Source: an uncultured Veillonellaceae bacterium (lineage in GTDB: Bacteria > Bacillota > Negativicutes > Veillonellales > Negativicoccaceae). From it: a stretch of DNA of 6,000 nt. Positions 1,500-6,000 of this stretch are shown in pieces. The notes beneath the pieces were generated by a model. That model saw only the letters and a list, made by a program, of their open reading frames with translations. It searched no databases and was not told where the DNA came from. The DNA is taken from positions 1-6,000 of the forward strand of contig USPU01000051.1 of NCBI GenBank assembly GCA_900556745.1. The letters run 5' to 3'. The translations under genes were made by a program, and so were the position numbers. Positions within the stretch are counted from its first letter, which is position 1; each line of letters begins with the position of its first letter.

Positions 1500-1508
1500 C
1501 ACATGGCT

Positions 1509-3416
1509 ATGATCAAAGTCGCCGGGCTCTCGAAAGCCTTCGGCATCGAAACTATTTTTAAAAATGTCACATTCACCGTCACGGAAGGACAGCGCGTCGG
1601 CTTGGTCGGCCGCAACGGCGCGGGCAAATCGACGCTGCTGCGTTGCGTCATGGGGACAATGGAGGCGGACTCGGGCAGCGTGAGCGTGACCGATCAGGCG
1701 ACGATCGGTTACGTGCAGCAAAGTATTGATTTCGGCGCGCAGACATTGCGCAAAGTGGTGGAAACCGCATGGGAAGACGTGCGGCGAATCGAACATGAAC
1801 TCGAGGATCTGACTATGCGCATGGGGCGGACTTCCGATCCGGCGCTGCTCGAACGCTACGCGAAACTGGAAGACCGCTTTGAACGGCTCGGCGGCTACGC
1901 CTATGAAACGATGACGCGCCGGATCTTGATCGGTCTCGGCTTTACGGAAGCGGACTGGGATCGCGCGGCGAATGATTTCTCCGGCGGTCAAAAAACCAGG
2001 ATCAATTTGGCGCGCGCGCTCGTGCGGCGGCCGGATTTTTTATTGCTGGATGAACCGACGAACCATTTGGATATCGCGATGACGGAATGGCTTGAAGATT
2101 TCTTGCGCAGTTATCGCGGCGGCATTTTGCTGGTGTCCCATGACCGCTACTTTTTGGACGCGGTGACGACGAACATTCTGGATCTCGAGCAGCATCGAGT
2201 CACATCGTATCGCGGCAATTACAGCACTTTCAGTAAAAAGAAAGCGGCGCGTTTATATGCCGACTTGCGCGCGTATGAAAAGCAGCAGGAAGAAATTACG
2301 CAAACCGAAGCCTACATTCGCAAATATAAAGCGGGTATCAAGGCGAAGCAGGCGCGCGGACGGCAAAGCCAACTAAATCGTCTGGAACGCCTGCAAAAGC
2401 CGGTGACAGAAACGACGCTCGCCTTTTCGTTTCGTCCGGCGACCGGCACGGCGGAACGCGTCTTGGATGTGCAGGAGCTGGCAGCGGCGTATGGGGATCG
2501 CACTATTTTTAAGGATATTTCCTTTTTGTTGCGTCGCGGCGATACTGTCGGCATCATCGGCCCGAACGGCATCGGCAAGTCGACGCTTTTGTCCGTGATT
2601 ACCGGCGAAAAAACACCGGCGCACGGCACGGTCACATTCGGCAATCGCGTCGCGCTCGGCTACTATTCGCAGGAACACACCAATTTGCATCCGAGCCGCA
2701 CGGTGCTTGAAGAGGTCATGCAGGAATACGGCTGCGGCGAAGATGACGCGCGTCATATTTTGGGCGGTTTTCTCTTCCGCGGCGATGACGTGTATCGTCT
2801 CGTCGGTCAGCTCTCCGGCGGGGAGCAGGCGCGGCTGGCGTTGCTGCTGTTGCTTTTGGAAGAACCGAATGTGCTCATTTTAGACGAACCGACAAACCAT
2901 TTGGATATCCCGACGCGCGAAATGATTGAAGACGCGTTGCTCGAGTTCGGCGGCACGTACCTGGTCGTGTCCCATGACCGTTACCTTTTGGATCGGCTGG
3001 TGCAACGCACGCTTTCATTTGAAGACGGCACTTTCCGTGAATATTTGGGCAACTATTCCTATTGGAAAGAAAAACGCAAGGAACTGCTGGAGACCGGTCG
3101 CATTCCGACACCGGAGACGGCAGAGCCGCGCAAAAAAGAAAATACGGTTACGCCGTCGGCGGACGTTTCGCCCGCGCCGCCTTCATCGCGCGCGACGGAT
3201 TCTTTCCGCGCGGCACCGCAGGCGGAGAAAAAAATCGCGGCGCTCGAGCAGGAAATCGCCCGCACGGAAGCGACGATCACGATGATTGAGACGCAGATCG
3301 TGCAAACGGTCGATGCGAACGCGTTGACGGAACTGGCCGAATCGCTTTCGGCCGCGCAGGAAAAGCTGACCACGCAGTACGAAAAATGGGAACACTGGGC
3401 GCAAATGCTTGAGTAA
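1509..3416 (+). CDS. ABC-F family ATPase (Uup/YfmM-like translation factor), two ATP-binding domains
   Basis: The product is 635 residues with two fused ABC ATPase domains and no membrane segments, which is the ABC-F layout. Domain 1 has Walker A GRNGAGKST (34-42), signature FSGGQ (157-161) and Walker B DEPTNHLD (181-188). Domain 2 has Walker A GPNGIGKST (351-359), signature LSGGEQ (435-440) and Walker B DEPTNHLD (459-466). Between them is a charged helical linker (about 243-295, rich in Lys/Arg/Gln), the P-site tRNA interaction motif region in known ABC-F proteins. A low-complexity Pro/Ala/Ser stretch (about 535-570) leads to a C-terminal coiled coil (about 573-635), as in Uup. Members bind the ribosomal E site and relieve stalled or mis-set ribosomes; some give antibiotic resistance. 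Nothing visible marks this one as a resistance type. It starts 34 bases after the secretin stop with no promoter seen between, so it probably shares that transcript, though a functional link to pili is not implied. ATG 1503 is an alternative start. Confidence 0.93.
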   Translation: MIKVAGLSKAFGIETIFKNVTFTVTEGQRVGLVGRNGAGKSTLLRCVMGTMEADSGSVSVTDQATIGYVQQSIDFGAQTLRKVVETAWEDVRRIEHELEDLTMRMGRTSDPALLERYAKLEDRFERLGGYAYETMTRRILIGLGFTEADWDRAANDFSGGQKTRINLARALVRRPDFLLLDEPTNHLDIAMTEWLEDFLRSYRGGILLVSHDRYFLDAVTTNILDLEQHRVTSYRGNYSTFSKKKAARLYADLRAYEKQQEEITQTEAYIRKYKAGIKAKQARGRQSQLNRLERLQKPVTETTLAFSFRPATGTAERVLDVQELAAAYGDRTIFKDISFLLRRGDTVGIIGPNGIGKSTLLSVITGEKTPAHGTVTFGNRVALGYYSQEHTNLHPSRTVLEEVMQEYGCGEDDARHILGGFLFRGDDVYRLVGQLSGGEQARLALLLLLLEEPNVLILDEPTNHLDIPTREMIEDALLEFGGTYLVVSHDRYLLDRLVQRTLSFEDGTFREYLGNYSYWKEKRKELLETGRIPTPETAEPRKKENTVTPSADVSPAPPSSRATDSFRAAPQAEKKIAALEQEIARTEATITMIETQIVQTVDANALTELAESLSAAQEKLTTQYEKWEHWAQMLE

Positions 3417-3419
3417 CAT

Positions 3420-3446
3420 ATTTTTTTAAAAAGTTTTTTAAAAAAG
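3420..3446 (+). promoter_or_regulatory. A/T-tract UP-element-like sequence upstream of the leader promoter
   Basis: Alternating runs of T and A (T7, A5, T6, A6) cover roughly -38 to -60 relative to the expected start of transcription, where RNA polymerase alpha subunits contact UP elements. The base composition contrasts sharply with the GC-rich surroundings. The tract has no GC-rich stem, so it is not convincing as a terminator for the ABC-F gene. Its role as an UP element is inferred from position and composition. Confidence 0.45.
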
Positions 3447-3448
3447 TG

Positions 3449-3477
3449 TTGACAGATGTAAAAATCGCTGGTAGAAT
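3449..3477 (+). promoter_or_regulatory. Sigma-A (sigma-70 type) promoter for the T-box leader and downstream operon
   Basis: A perfect -35 box TTGACA (3449-3454) is separated by exactly 17 bases from TAGAAT (3472-3477), one mismatch from the consensus -10 box. Transcription should begin near 3483-3486, just before the first T-box Stem I. No comparable promoter is visible between the T-boxes or before the downstream gene, so this is probably the only promoter for 3485-6000. Confidence 0.85.
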
Positions 3478-3486
3478 CAATCCAAC

Positions 3487-3709
3487 ATCAAAAAGCAATG
3501 ACCGGGATCAAATTTTTCGGCAAGGAACTTTTCAGAGAGCAGACGTTCGGTGCGAGTTTGCAAGTCAGTCGGAAAAGAATACCTCACCCGTGAGCCTTCG
3601 TCGTGAATGGAGTAATGACGAACGTCGCCGGCGTTAACGGATCGAGAGATAAACCAGGGTGGTACCGCGTAACTACGCCCCTGCAGAGATATTTTCTGCG
3701 GGGGTTTTT
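3487..3709 (+). promoter_or_regulatory. T-box riboswitch 1, specifier CTC (leucine)
   Basis: This leader binds a tRNA and lets transcription continue when that tRNA is uncharged. Stem I can be traced. The lower helix is CGGG (3503-3506) with CCCG (3587-3590). The middle helix is TTTTTCGGC (3513-3521) with GTCGGAAAA (3568-3576). An AGAGAG bulge region (3534-3539) precedes the apical helix GCAGAC (3539-3544) with GTTTGC (3556-3561), whose loop carries GGTG (3549-3552, the GNUG element). The codon one base 5' of the lower helix, the specifier position in characterised T-boxes such as glyQS, is CTC at 3583-3585, read by tRNA-Leu(GAG). A TTCGTC/GACGAA hairpin follows. The T-box motif ending GGGTGGTACCGCG is at 3651-3669; CAGGG (3655-3659) can pair with CCCTG of the terminator to form the antiterminator. 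The TGGT bulge predicts discriminator base A, which fits tRNA-Leu and tRNA-Ile. The adjacent TAC is one codon out of register and is rejected as specifier. Confidence 0.92.
3678..3709 (+). terminator. Intrinsic terminator of T-box 1
   Basis: CCCCTGCAG (3678-3686) pairs with CTGCGGGGG (3696-3704) in a 9-bp stem with one T-G wobble and a 9-base loop, followed by T5 (3705-3709). The left arm is the same segment needed by the antiterminator, so the two structures exclude each other. It should also stop read-through from the ABC-F gene. Confidence 0.9.
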
Positions 3710-3721
3710 AAGTACCGCCAA

Positions 3722-3943
3722 TCAAAAAAGCAATGACCGGGACCAAATTTTTCGGCAAGGACTTTTCAGAGAGCAGACGTTCGGTGCGAGTCTGCAAGTC
3801 AGTCGGAAAAGATTACATCACCCGTGAGCCTTCGTCGTGAACAAAGTAATGACGAACGTCGCCGGCGTTAACGGACCGAGAGATAAACCAGGGTGGTACC
3901 GCGTAACTACGCCCCTGCAGGGAATTTTCCTGCGGGGGTTTTT
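3722..3943 (+). promoter_or_regulatory. T-box riboswitch 2, specifier ATC (isoleucine)
   Basis: This is a near copy of box 1 with all elements kept. It has the CGGG/CCCG lower helix, the TTTTTCGGC/GTCGGAAAA middle helix and an AG bulge. The apical helix GCAGAC/GTCTGC is now fully Watson-Crick, and the loop carries GGTG. The T-box motif is at 3885-3903. The specifier position, one base before the lower-helix CCCG, reads ATC at 3817-3819, matching tRNA-Ile(GAU). The TGGT bulge again expects discriminator A. Only about 12 bases separate it from terminator 1 and no promoter is visible there, so it is reached only by polymerase that passed box 1. Confidence 0.92.
3912..3943 (+). terminator. Intrinsic terminator of T-box 2
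   Basis: CCCCTGCAGG (3912-3921) pairs with CCTGCGGGGG (3929-3938) in a 10-bp stem with one T-G wobble and the loop GAATTTT, followed by T5 (3939-3943). It has one more base pair than terminator 1. Its left arm overlaps the antiterminator partner of the T-box motif. Confidence 0.9.
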
Positions 3944-3957
3944 ATGTACCACGAGAA

Positions 3958-4170
3958 GGCAAGGAACGGGCTAAAGTCTTCGCCAATGATTTTTCAGAGA
4001 GCAAACGGCGCTGCGAGTTTGCAAATCGGCGAAGAGGAATACATCACCCGCGAGCCGCAACGCGAACCGAGTAGCGATTGCCGTCGCCGGCGTTAACGGA
4101 CCGAGAGATAAACCAGGGTGGTACCGCGCCGCCGCGCCCCTGCAGGATATTTTCCTGCGGGGGATTTTTT
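3958..4170 (+). promoter_or_regulatory. T-box riboswitch 3, specifier ATC (isoleucine), diverged copy
   Basis: The primary sequence of Stem I differs from boxes 1 and 2 but the fold is kept. The lower helix is CGGG with CCCG. The middle helix is TCTTCGCC with GGCGAAGA, a full compensatory replacement of the helix in boxes 1-2. The apical helix is GCAAAC with GTTTGC, and its loop carries GCTG as the GNUG element. The specifier is ATC at 4043-4045 (Ile), in the same register. The next hairpin is also replaced, GCAACGC pairing with GCGATTGC around one bulged A. From 4082 on, the sequence again matches the other boxes, with the T-box motif at 4110-4128. The antiterminator loop is GC-rich (GCCGCC) instead of TAACTA. 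It is the last gate before the coding region. Confidence 0.92.
4137..4170 (+). terminator. Intrinsic terminator of T-box 3
   Basis: CCCCTGCAGG (4137-4146) pairs with CCTGCGGGGG (4154-4163) in a 10-bp stem with the loop ATATTTT, then A and T6 (4165-4170). It is the third serial terminator ahead of the class III aminotransferase-like gene. About 50 bases of spacer with no other recognisable element separate it from the start codon. Confidence 0.9.
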
Positions 4171-4206
4171 ATCCTCGAAGTAACGCCAAAACGGTTTTTA
4201 ATAGAG

Positions 4207-4212
4207 AAAGGA
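4207..4212 (+). promoter_or_regulatory. Ribosome binding site that decides the start of the PLP enzyme
   Basis: AAAGGA (roughly 4207-4212) sits 8 bases before the ATG at 4221. The in-frame ATG at 4212 overlaps this ribosome binding site and has none of its own, so translation should begin at 4221 (MKRSQELIQEE), not at 4212 (MIFMKRS). Confidence 0.7.
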
Positions 4213-4220
4213 TGATATTC

Positions 4221-5558
4221 ATGAAACGCTCCCAGGAATTAATTCAAGAAGAAAGTCATTATTTTGCGCCGGCCGGTCGGATTCCGTATTATCCGCTGGT
4301 CATTGATCATGCGCACGGTTCGACGCTGACCGATGTCGACGGTAACGAATACCTCGACTTGTTGACAAGCGCCAGTGCCTTGAATGTGGGGCACACACCG
4401 GAGCCGATCGTGAATGCCATTATCGCCCAGGTCAAGAAAATGATTCATTATACTCCGGCCTACATGTACCACGAGCCTTTGGTACATCTTGCGAAAAAAA
4501 TGTGCGAAATCACGCCGGGAGATTTTGAAAAACGCGTTATCTTCGGCTTGACCGGTTCCGATGCCAACGATGCTCTGATCAAGTTCGCCCGCGGGTACAC
4601 GGGTCGTCCGTACATTATCTCCTTCGTGAACGCGTACCACGGCTCGACGTACGGTTCGATTTCCATGTCGGCGATCAGTCAAAACATGCGCCGCAAAATC
4701 GGTCCGTTGTTGCCGGGCTTCTACCATATTCCGTTTCCGGACAGCTACCGCGGCATGTACGGCAGCGCGGAACCGAATACGGTGGAAGAATACCTCGCGC
4801 CGCTGAAAGAAATGTTGGCGACCTACGTGCCGCCGGAAGAAGTGGCGGCGGTGGTTATCGAAACATTGCAAGGCGACGGCGGCTTGTTGCAGCCGGTGGA
4901 CGGTTACTTCGAAGCCTTGCAGAAGTTGTGTAAAGAACACGGCATTCTCTTTTGCGTTGACGACACGCAGCAGGGGCTCGGACGCACCGGCACATGGTGC
5001 TCGCTGGAACACTGGCATTTGGATCCCGACCTTGTCGTTTACGGTAAATCGCTCGCGGCGGGACTGCCGCTCTCCGCTTTGGTCGGACGCAAAGAGATTA
5101 TGGAAAGTCTGGATCGTCCCGCGCATTTATTTACGACCGGAGCCAATCCGGTATGTTGTGCGGCGGCGCTTGCGACTTTGCAATACATCGAAGACAATGA
5201 TTTACTCGCGGAAAGCACGCGTAAAGGCAAGATCGCGCGCGAGCGGATGGAAGATTGGCGCGAACGTTTCGACTGCGTCGGTGACGTTCGCGGTTTAGGC
5301 CTTTCACTCGGCGTTGATATCGTCGCCGATAAAAAAGCGAAAACGAAAGATCCTCACGCCGCGCTCGTTATTTGCAACCGCGCCTACGAAAAAGGCGTCG
5401 TGATGATCGCTTTCGCCGGCAGTGTTTTGCGTTTCCAACCGCCGCTGACGATCACGGATGAAGAACTCAATAAAGCATTGGATGTTATCGAAGAAACTTT
5501 AACGGAATGGCAGGAGGGCCGGCTCGCCGATTATAAAGTCGACGGGCAAGGCTGGTAA
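4221..5558 (+). CDS. Class III aminotransferase-fold PLP enzyme, probable isoleucine 2-epimerase / branched-chain amino acid racemase
   Basis: The product has 445 residues, the usual size for class III (GABA-transaminase-like) PLP enzymes. Visible active-site elements are GSDAND (112-117, phosphate-binding loop), AYHGSTYGS with Y139-H140-G141 (ring stacking), D247 in DDTQQGLGRTG (pyridine nitrogen), K276 in VYGKSLAAGLPLS (Schiff-base lysine) and HLFTTGANPVCCAA (phosphate contact from the partner subunit). As I recall it, the Lactobacillus buchneri isoleucine 2-epimerase shares many of the same blocks: VIDHAHG, GSDAND..IKFAR, YHGSTYGS, RKIGP, PDSYR, DGG, HGILF, QGLGRTG, GKSLA, PAHLFTT and LRFQPPL. 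That enzyme interconverts L-isoleucine and D-allo-isoleucine and acts on other non-polar amino acids. The Ile/Leu T-boxes upstream support a branched-chain substrate. It is cytosolic and probably a homo-oligomer. Alternatives are a transaminase for branched-chain, omega-amino or D-amino acids. The fold is certain; the epimerase reaction is inferred. Confidence 0.85.
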   Translation: MKRSQELIQEESHYFAPAGRIPYYPLVIDHAHGSTLTDVDGNEYLDLLTSASALNVGHTPEPIVNAIIAQVKKMIHYTPAYMYHEPLVHLAKKMCEITPGDFEKRVIFGLTGSDANDALIKFARGYTGRPYIISFVNAYHGSTYGSISMSAISQNMRRKIGPLLPGFYHIPFPDSYRGMYGSAEPNTVEEYLAPLKEMLATYVPPEEVAAVVIETLQGDGGLLQPVDGYFEALQKLCKEHGILFCVDDTQQGLGRTGTWCSLEHWHLDPDLVVYGKSLAAGLPLSALVGRKEIMESLDRPAHLFTTGANPVCCAAALATLQYIEDNDLLAESTRKGKIARERMEDWRERFDCVGDVRGLGLSLGVDIVADKKAKTKDPHAALVICNRAYEKGVVMIAFAGSVLRFQPPLTITDEELNKALDVIEETLTEWQEGRLADYKVDGQGW

Positions 5559-5563
5559 GGAGG
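5557..5563 (+). promoter_or_regulatory. Ribosome binding site for the YkvI-family gene
   Basis: AAGGAGG overlaps the stop codon of the preceding gene. It lies 3 bases before the ATG at 5567 and 6 bases before the ATG at 5570, so 5570 (MEQVNW) is the better start. The overlap with the upstream stop suggests translational coupling. Confidence 0.65.
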
Positions 5564-5569
5564 GACATG

Positions 5570-6000
5570 ATGGAACAAGTTAACTGGCGTAACGTAGTCA
5601 AACTGAGCGGGGCGTATATCGCCTACCTCATCGGCTCGGGCTTTGCCACGGGGCAGGAAGTATTACAGTTTTTCGCTTCGTACGGCATGAACGGTTTGTA
5701 CGGCGCGTTGATCAGTGCCGTTTTGTTCTGCTCCATCGGCGTGATCGTCATGCGCAAGGGACATGAATTGCAGCTCGCACGGCCGTCGCTGATTTTCCGT
5801 CATTACTGCGGCAATTATTTGGGACGCGCGATCGAGTATTTCACACTGCTCTTCATCTTTTCGATCGTCGTCATCATGATCGCGGGTTCGGGCGCCATCG
5901 CGGAGGAATATTTCGGCGTGCCGTCCGCGGTCGGTTGGTTCGGCATGGGCGTTGTCGCGATGATTACGGTGCTCGCCGGATTGCGTCGCCTGGTCGATAT
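5570..6000 (+). CDS. YkvI-family (COG3949) membrane protein, probable amino acid transporter, 3' truncated
   Basis: The visible 143 residues are strongly hydrophobic. Likely membrane segments lie at about 11-27, 43-62, 89-110 and 121-138. The opening, KLSGAYIAYLIGSGFATGQE followed by VLQFF, is characteristic of the YkvI family. The IGSGFATGQE stretch (21-30) resembles the broken first helix that binds substrate in LeuT/APC-fold carriers. The family is mostly uncharacterised; a secondary, cation-coupled amino acid transport role is inferred from the fold. It begins 11 bases after the PLP enzyme stop and shares its T-box-controlled transcript, which points to branched-chain amino acids (L or D forms) as the cargo, in either direction. 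The rest of the gene, probably more than half, lies beyond the window. ATG 5567 is an alternative start adding one Met. Confidence 0.85.
   Translation, partial: MEQVNWRNVVKLSGAYIAYLIGSGFATGQEVLQFFASYGMNGLYGALISAVLFCSIGVIVMRKGHELQLARPSLIFRHYCGNYLGRAIEYFTLLFIFSIVVIMIAGSGAIAEEYFGVPSAVGWFGMGVVAMITVLAGLRRLVD

Follow-up and report, generated by a model that had tools for sequence, protein, structure and literature searches.

A stretch of 6,000 nucleotides (the window, by which we mean the whole stretch at its full length) carries at positions 3489-4171 three complete T-box riboswitches in series, each with its own terminator. Their specifiers read Leu, Ile and Ile, and with moderate confidence we regard this leader as most likely a serial gate, which would need both uncharged tRNA-Leu(GAG) and uncharged tRNA-Ile(GAU) to open and would control a predicted epimerase/transporter operon. 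As judged from about 95% DNA identity the window belongs to the genus Negativicoccus; positions 3487-6000 are 94.9% identical to N. massiliensis (L051), and with another Negativicoccus genome (L050) the identity is 94.5%. The features on which the argument rests are listed here.

3449..3477, + strand: promoter-like site TTGACA-17-TAGAAT with a TG before the second hexamer (11/12 consensus matches)
3489..3685, + strand: T-box 1, Leu specifier (RF00230, 102.8 bits)
3583..3585, + strand: specifier codon CTC (Leu) of box 1 (register calibration; a unique column)
3657..3669, + strand: T-box core GGGTGGTACCGCG of box 1, bulge TGGT (sequence match)
3677..3705, + strand: terminator hairpin of box 1 (-22.0 kcal/mol folded alone)
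3724..3919, + strand: T-box 2, Ile specifier (RF00230, 104.8 bits)
3817..3819, + strand: specifier codon ATC (Ile) of box 2 (register calibration)
3911..3939, + strand: terminator hairpin of box 2 (-23.8 kcal/mol folded alone)
3953..4144, + strand: T-box 3, Ile specifier, a diverged copy (RF00230, 84.3 bits, below gathering)
4043..4045, + strand: specifier codon ATC (Ile) of box 3 (register calibration)
4137..4163, + strand: terminator hairpin of box 3 (-23.5 kcal/mol folded alone)
4221..5558, + strand: class III PLP enzyme, predicted branched-chain amino acid (isoleucine) 2-epimerase (PF00202, PRK08593, PDB relatives)
5567..5998, + strand: 5' part of a YkvI-family membrane transporter which runs off the window (likeness; predicted APC fold of the full-length N. 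massiliensis protein)

The original prediction was a strong promoter followed by three complete T-boxes with a terminator each and no room for further promoters in the gaps between them. The analysis agrees on the boxes, the terminators and the gaps, and finds a promoter-like site ahead of them. A cmscan search of the whole window with the covariance model RF00230 finds boxes 1 and 2 (E 1.3e-22 and 4.2e-23) above the gathering score of 93, and a search of 261 bases finds box 3 (E 3.4e-19) below that score. The T-box core GGGTGGTACCGCG starts at 3657, 3891 and 4116, and the UGGU bulge is present in all three boxes. The terminators occupy the CGCCCCT arm which the antiterminator requires, and the two folds are therefore mutually exclusive. 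When the antiterminator stretch is folded by itself it forms the expected helix in boxes 1 and 2 and a different hairpin in box 3. The region 3000-4600 contains four terminator-like sites, of which one is on the opposite strand, against 2.7 +/- 1.7 in shuffled sequence; the count gives no weight to these hairpins, which get it from being placed behind each T-box core.

A sigma-70 consensus scan gives a single promoter-like site before the array, at 3449-3477, where 1.2 would be expected by chance in the region scanned; N. massiliensis has exactly the same site, and the second relative (L050) has it with one base changed. The same scan finds no promoter-like site between the boxes, and the gaps from the T run of a terminator to the next Rfam match are only about 14 and 9 bases; internal promoters are on these grounds rejected. 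The leader thus holds at least two full boxes with no intervening promoter, which makes it a tandem array.

The reading of the specifiers depends on the register, and this was calibrated on all Rfam-found T-boxes of the two Negativicoccus relatives (13 and 14), with the eight boxes of their own arrays at this locus set aside. The rule takes as specifier the codon whose end lies six bases ahead of the GAG that forms the 3' foot of Stem I, and this codon was compared with the downstream gene. Since each leader has several GAG strings, the one belonging to this foot had to be picked out, and the choice was not made blindly. Genes were named with NCBIfam at one locus per gene and the loci of the second genome by likeness; the ileS piece is truncated by the end of its locus and scores just under the NCBIfam cut-off. 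The rule fits the downstream gene in all of the 15 scorable loci, which represent eight genes in two related genomes (ileS ATC, valS GTC, thrS ACC, glyQ GGC, pheS TTC, cysE TGC, serC TCC and metF ATG). Four loci with two genes were left unscored as their amino acid is uncertain: a TrpX-like binding protein, below the cut-off of the TrpX model, whose specifier TTC does not fit Trp, and an ECF-type transporter, where the codon is TGG. A register shifted three bases upstream, which would make TAC and hence Tyr the specifier, had been named as the reading that would overturn the original assignment; it fits 0/15 loci and a Tyr specifier is excluded. The specifiers CTC, ATC and ATC are thereby confirmed, and Ile and Leu both suit the predicted branched-chain enzyme downstream.

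An unusual arrangement was seen before the TrpX-like gene. The T-box there (L033 1501-1767 and L052, in genomes G001 and G002) has one Stem I followed by two successive antiterminator/terminator modules, with two GGTGGTACC cores 57 bases apart, and its specifier is for Phe, not Trp.

The original prediction proposed that related genomes be searched for the same array. Both Negativicoccus relatives have four boxes at this locus behind the same promoter, with ATC as specifier in 8/8 of them. These arrays (L050 1294-2216 and L051 1219-2142) are the longest full arrays we encountered. In two more distant members of the order (G032 and G033; the protein is 79-80% identical) the same gene pair has a single upstream T-box in the stretch fetched, and its specifier, read by eye, is ATC in both. 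At E 1e-120 or better the enzyme occurs in 4/61 genomes of the order. As the boxes of the relatives all carry ATC, whether four or single, the Leu specifier is derived: a one-base change at 3583 in the lineage of the window, known from one sequence, and not a conserved device. The history is probably that a single Ile box was the starting point, that the array was expanded in Negativicoccus, and that one box then changed from ATC to CTC in the lineage of the window.

Boxes 1 and 2 are 93% identical and box 1 is 95% identical to three boxes of N. massiliensis and to one of the other Negativicoccus genome, while box 3 is only 76-79% identical to boxes 1 and 2. Against ten other Negativicoccus boxes, box 1 has two private alignment columns, and one of these is the first specifier base, C in the window and A in 10/10 others. 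With two private changes over about 223 bases the chance that one falls within the three-base specifier is about 3%, a figure to be taken as a rough hint and not as a test. The change could also be chance drift, as the nine codons that lie one base away from ATC include one for Leu, CTC. Box 3 has 24 private columns, and some of its Stem I pairs are kept by two-sided changes (columns 40-76 and 54-70); the fold which RNAalifold gives for the aligned boxes is in part a mixture of T-box and terminator pairs, and it served solely to show these compensatory changes in Stem I.

A mixed array known from one sequence might be an error, either in the base call at 3583 or in the number of boxes, the true array being all-Ile. 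Repeats as similar as boxes 1 and 2 are a typical spot for short-read assembly errors, the relatives differ from the window in having four boxes instead of three, and all four are ATC. Collapse or mixing of known copies cannot, however, yield a C at this position when it is absent from all ten other Negativicoccus boxes, and the flanking genes read as long open frames. We consider such an artefact improbable.

It was also considered whether the array came with the gene from staphylococci. The homologous loci (n = 32) comprise 1 from Negativicoccus, 28 from Staphylococcus (64-69% identity over the best segment) and 3 remote ones, with further clusters at 69-72%. No T-box above gathering was found in the 11 of the 28 staphylococcal loci which were scanned, and no T-box core within 700 bases upstream in any of the 28, of which one has 145 bases upstream and two have N runs. 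On the upstream stretches scanned, inheritance of the array together with the gene from this source is rejected. Three of the 11 scanned loci (L015, L029 and L002) have SAM riboswitches above gathering about 1.1-1.2 kb before the epimerase gene.

The gate would require two tRNAs, and the genes for both are present in the genus as judged from ARAGORN predictions in selected tRNA regions (13 of G001 and 10 of G002): tRNA-Leu(GAG) in both genomes and tRNA-Ile(GAU) in G001. The anticodon GAG is the exact partner of CUC, and the tRNA-Leu(GAG) and tRNA-Ile(GAU) sequences listed have A-CCA at their ends, in keeping with the UGGU bulge that all boxes share. In the T-box database TBDB, CUC is the commonest Leu specifier (77% of them by its table and 74% by its text), while AUC makes up 99% of the Ile specifiers (PMC7778990). 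The single base at 3583 thus converts one canonical specifier into another canonical specifier. It speaks against a working Leu box that box 1 has no other change suited to the class II (long-arm) tRNA-Leu.

Because pairing of CUC with the anticodon GAU would be incomplete, box 1 should either answer to tRNA-Leu or keep the operon nearly shut. The second outcome would be expected if box 1 is a decaying Ile box, in which CTC has broken the binding of tRNA-Ile without giving useful control by tRNA-Leu; terminator 1 would then be mostly shut and expression weak. That the change is a single base in one lineage fits with this, and the difference between three and four boxes among relatives indicates turnover of the array. 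A decaying box would nevertheless hardly keep its other T-box elements and a score like that of box 2; two private columns speak against a general decay, and CTC is the Leu specifier met most often in TBDB (PMC7778990), with its tRNA present in the genus. Decay of box 1 is therefore unlikely in our judgement, and most weight is put on a response of box 1 to tRNA-Leu.

The original prediction did not name the target of the leader, and it is now likely to be a branched-chain epimerase with a transporter, which gives the Leu/Ile reading its best functional support. The enzyme, for which we used the start at 4221 (the list of open reading frames has an earlier ATG at 4212), belongs to the class III PLP family with 340.9 bits for PF00202 and 744 bits for PRK08593. 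The three nearest distinct PDB sequences are all isoleucine 2-epimerase (E 7e-149 to 9e-149; the next is at 2.4e-110), and the enzyme and the isoleucine 2-epimerases have a GKSLA stretch in common, the lysine of which we take to be the PLP anchor. Among the best NCBIfam rows listed it passes the cut-off only for "aspartate aminotransferase family protein", and with the leucine/methionine racemase model it is below the cut-off (390 versus 800).

The YkvI-family protein is complete in N. massiliensis (367 residues), and its gene adjoins that of the enzyme in G032, in G033 and in 7/28 staphylococcal loci. It has no match in Pfam, in the NCBIfam models or among PDB sequences. The predicted structure of the N. 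massiliensis protein (pLDDT 92.3) has the APC/LeuT fold, and a fold search with this model gives ApcT, BasC and other APC/LeuT-fold transporters among the best hits, with many families close together. From these likenesses the operon is probably concerned with salvage of branched-chain amino acids in the D-form, and a leader sensing Leu and Ile would suit such a target well. Just upstream of the array lies a gene for an ABC-F family protein (1503-3416; the ribosomal protection-like ABC-F model is passed), and at 248-1474 a secretin-like gene.

Leu, Ile and Val have steps of transport and synthesis in common. It can on this ground be argued that the levels of Leu and Ile drop together, that the three boxes serve as a dose device for general branched-chain shortage, and that the Leu box has no practical effect on the logic. 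Tandem T-boxes are indeed common on branched-chain synthesis genes (PMC12452182). A dose device would need no change of specifier, however, and the relatives use ATC only; we find this explanation possible and yet rather doubtful, and prefer the serial gate with two different inputs.

The triple tandem T-boxes of B. subtilis thrZ have one specificity throughout. Arrays of the thrS/thrZ kind control a synthetase, whereas the array in the window precedes an epimerase-transporter operon. T-boxes are a leading family of tandem riboswitches, with both pairs and triples, according to PMC12452182, where it is argued that tandem T-boxes in series need two uncharged tRNAs; the triple T-boxes described there for threonyl-tRNA synthetase (thrS) are like the window array in being complete T-boxes in series in one leader. 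The word "specifier" is absent from the main text of that paper. How tandem T-boxes are built and what they do is named as an open question in a review (PMC7583486).

Tandem arrays were said in the original prediction to be usually of one specificity, and this agrees with all 6 of the 6 other full arrays which we have read. A two-core pattern is found in 2/380 genomes of the class, both with the four-box Negativicoccus arrays, and its mirrored control in 3/380. A pattern with wider spacing is found in 0/61 genomes of the order (control 0/61) and in 5/398 genomes in the phylum of a Staphylococcus genome (control 2/398). Because the mirrored control also matches, single matches mean little before they are read. 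Of these five, L133 (Thr/Thr, by script) and L135 (Ser/Ser, by eye) are full tandem arrays and L134 is partial; in L136 and L137 the second core lies within coding sequence, and L136 is without any T-box. The Thr/Thr pair stands before a thrS-like gene, as seen by eye, and is of the same kind as the threonyl-tRNA synthetase arrays. In L134, from Bacillota, a discriminator module is repeated behind one leader, before a DAHP synthase-like gene (by eye).

Being exact, the patterns overlook many arrays, including those of G030 and G031, and the order may have more arrays than those among the matches listed. Among these matches G030 and G031 (L129 and L130) have two Leu (CTC) T-boxes before an ilvC-like gene, as read by eye. 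There, also by eye, a promoter-like site precedes each box, in contrast to the single site of the window array. Viral contigs contain neither the specifier stretch of box 1 nor the two-core pattern.

That a mixed array is uncommon, as was also proposed, holds in part: no Leu/Ile T-box array was found in the open-licence literature, judged mostly at the level of listings, but a mixed pair of T-boxes has a precedent. This is the homoserine dehydrogenase leader of C. difficile, where two tandem T-boxes presumably bind two different tRNAs (PMC11477304), as would the mixed array of the window. It differs in having two boxes, in the pathway and in that its specificity is presumed, and the passage on it does not describe a point switch out of a uniform array (PMC11477304). 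The T box-Leu/ppGpp riboswitch resembles the window array in consisting of two ON switches with separate expression platforms and a predicted AND behaviour with tRNA-Leu as one input; its second input is ppGpp, sensed by another class of RNA, whereas both inputs in the window would be tRNAs (PMC9481103). Table 2 of this review of tandem riboswitches has the T box-Leu and ppGpp AND gate and no T-box/T-box gate (PMC9481103).

On the side of the target, the lactobacillar isoleucine 2-epimerase is likely in one operon with an APC importer, so that a class III PLP epimerase adjoins an APC-fold transporter as in the window. The transporter of L. fermentum imports D-branched-chain amino acids, which the operon puts to use (PMC11907396). 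The partner in the window is of the YkvI family, unlike the lactobacillar importer, and the activities in the window are predictions from sequence. Neither "T-box" nor "regulation" occurs in the main text of that paper (PMC11907396). Tandem, triple and presumably mixed T-boxes are thus already known, and the point-switched Leu/Ile array is a new form of them.

The gate that we propose would work as follows. Each box would stop transcription unless its own uncharged tRNA binds, and read-through of the leader would be roughly the product of the three read-through probabilities; the AND logic would follow from the three terminators standing in series in one leader. Two Ile boxes would give a steeper response to Ile and less leakage, and box 1 with its change from ATC to CTC would add Leu shortage as a second required input. 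When both amino acids run short, the enzyme and the transporter would take up the D-forms of Ile, Leu and Val and convert them to the L-amino acids. The stronger form of the proposal, that a one-base change made the first unit of an all-Ile array into a Leu sensor and so produced a natural tRNA-Leu AND tRNA-Ile gate on a D-branched-chain salvage operon, we hold tentatively, at a little under an even chance.

The genus and its neighbours in the order provide a natural matched set on one operon, with one box (G032 and G033), four Ile boxes (the two Negativicoccus relatives) and Leu-Ile-Ile. Since only 11/228 alignment columns separate the first box of the window from that of N. massiliensis, it can be measured directly how the number of boxes and a single specifier base affect steepness, leakage and logic. 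If the Leu box works, one mutational step is enough to give a T-box array a second input, and the regulatory logic of this operon would have evolved through one codon in an array of repeats.
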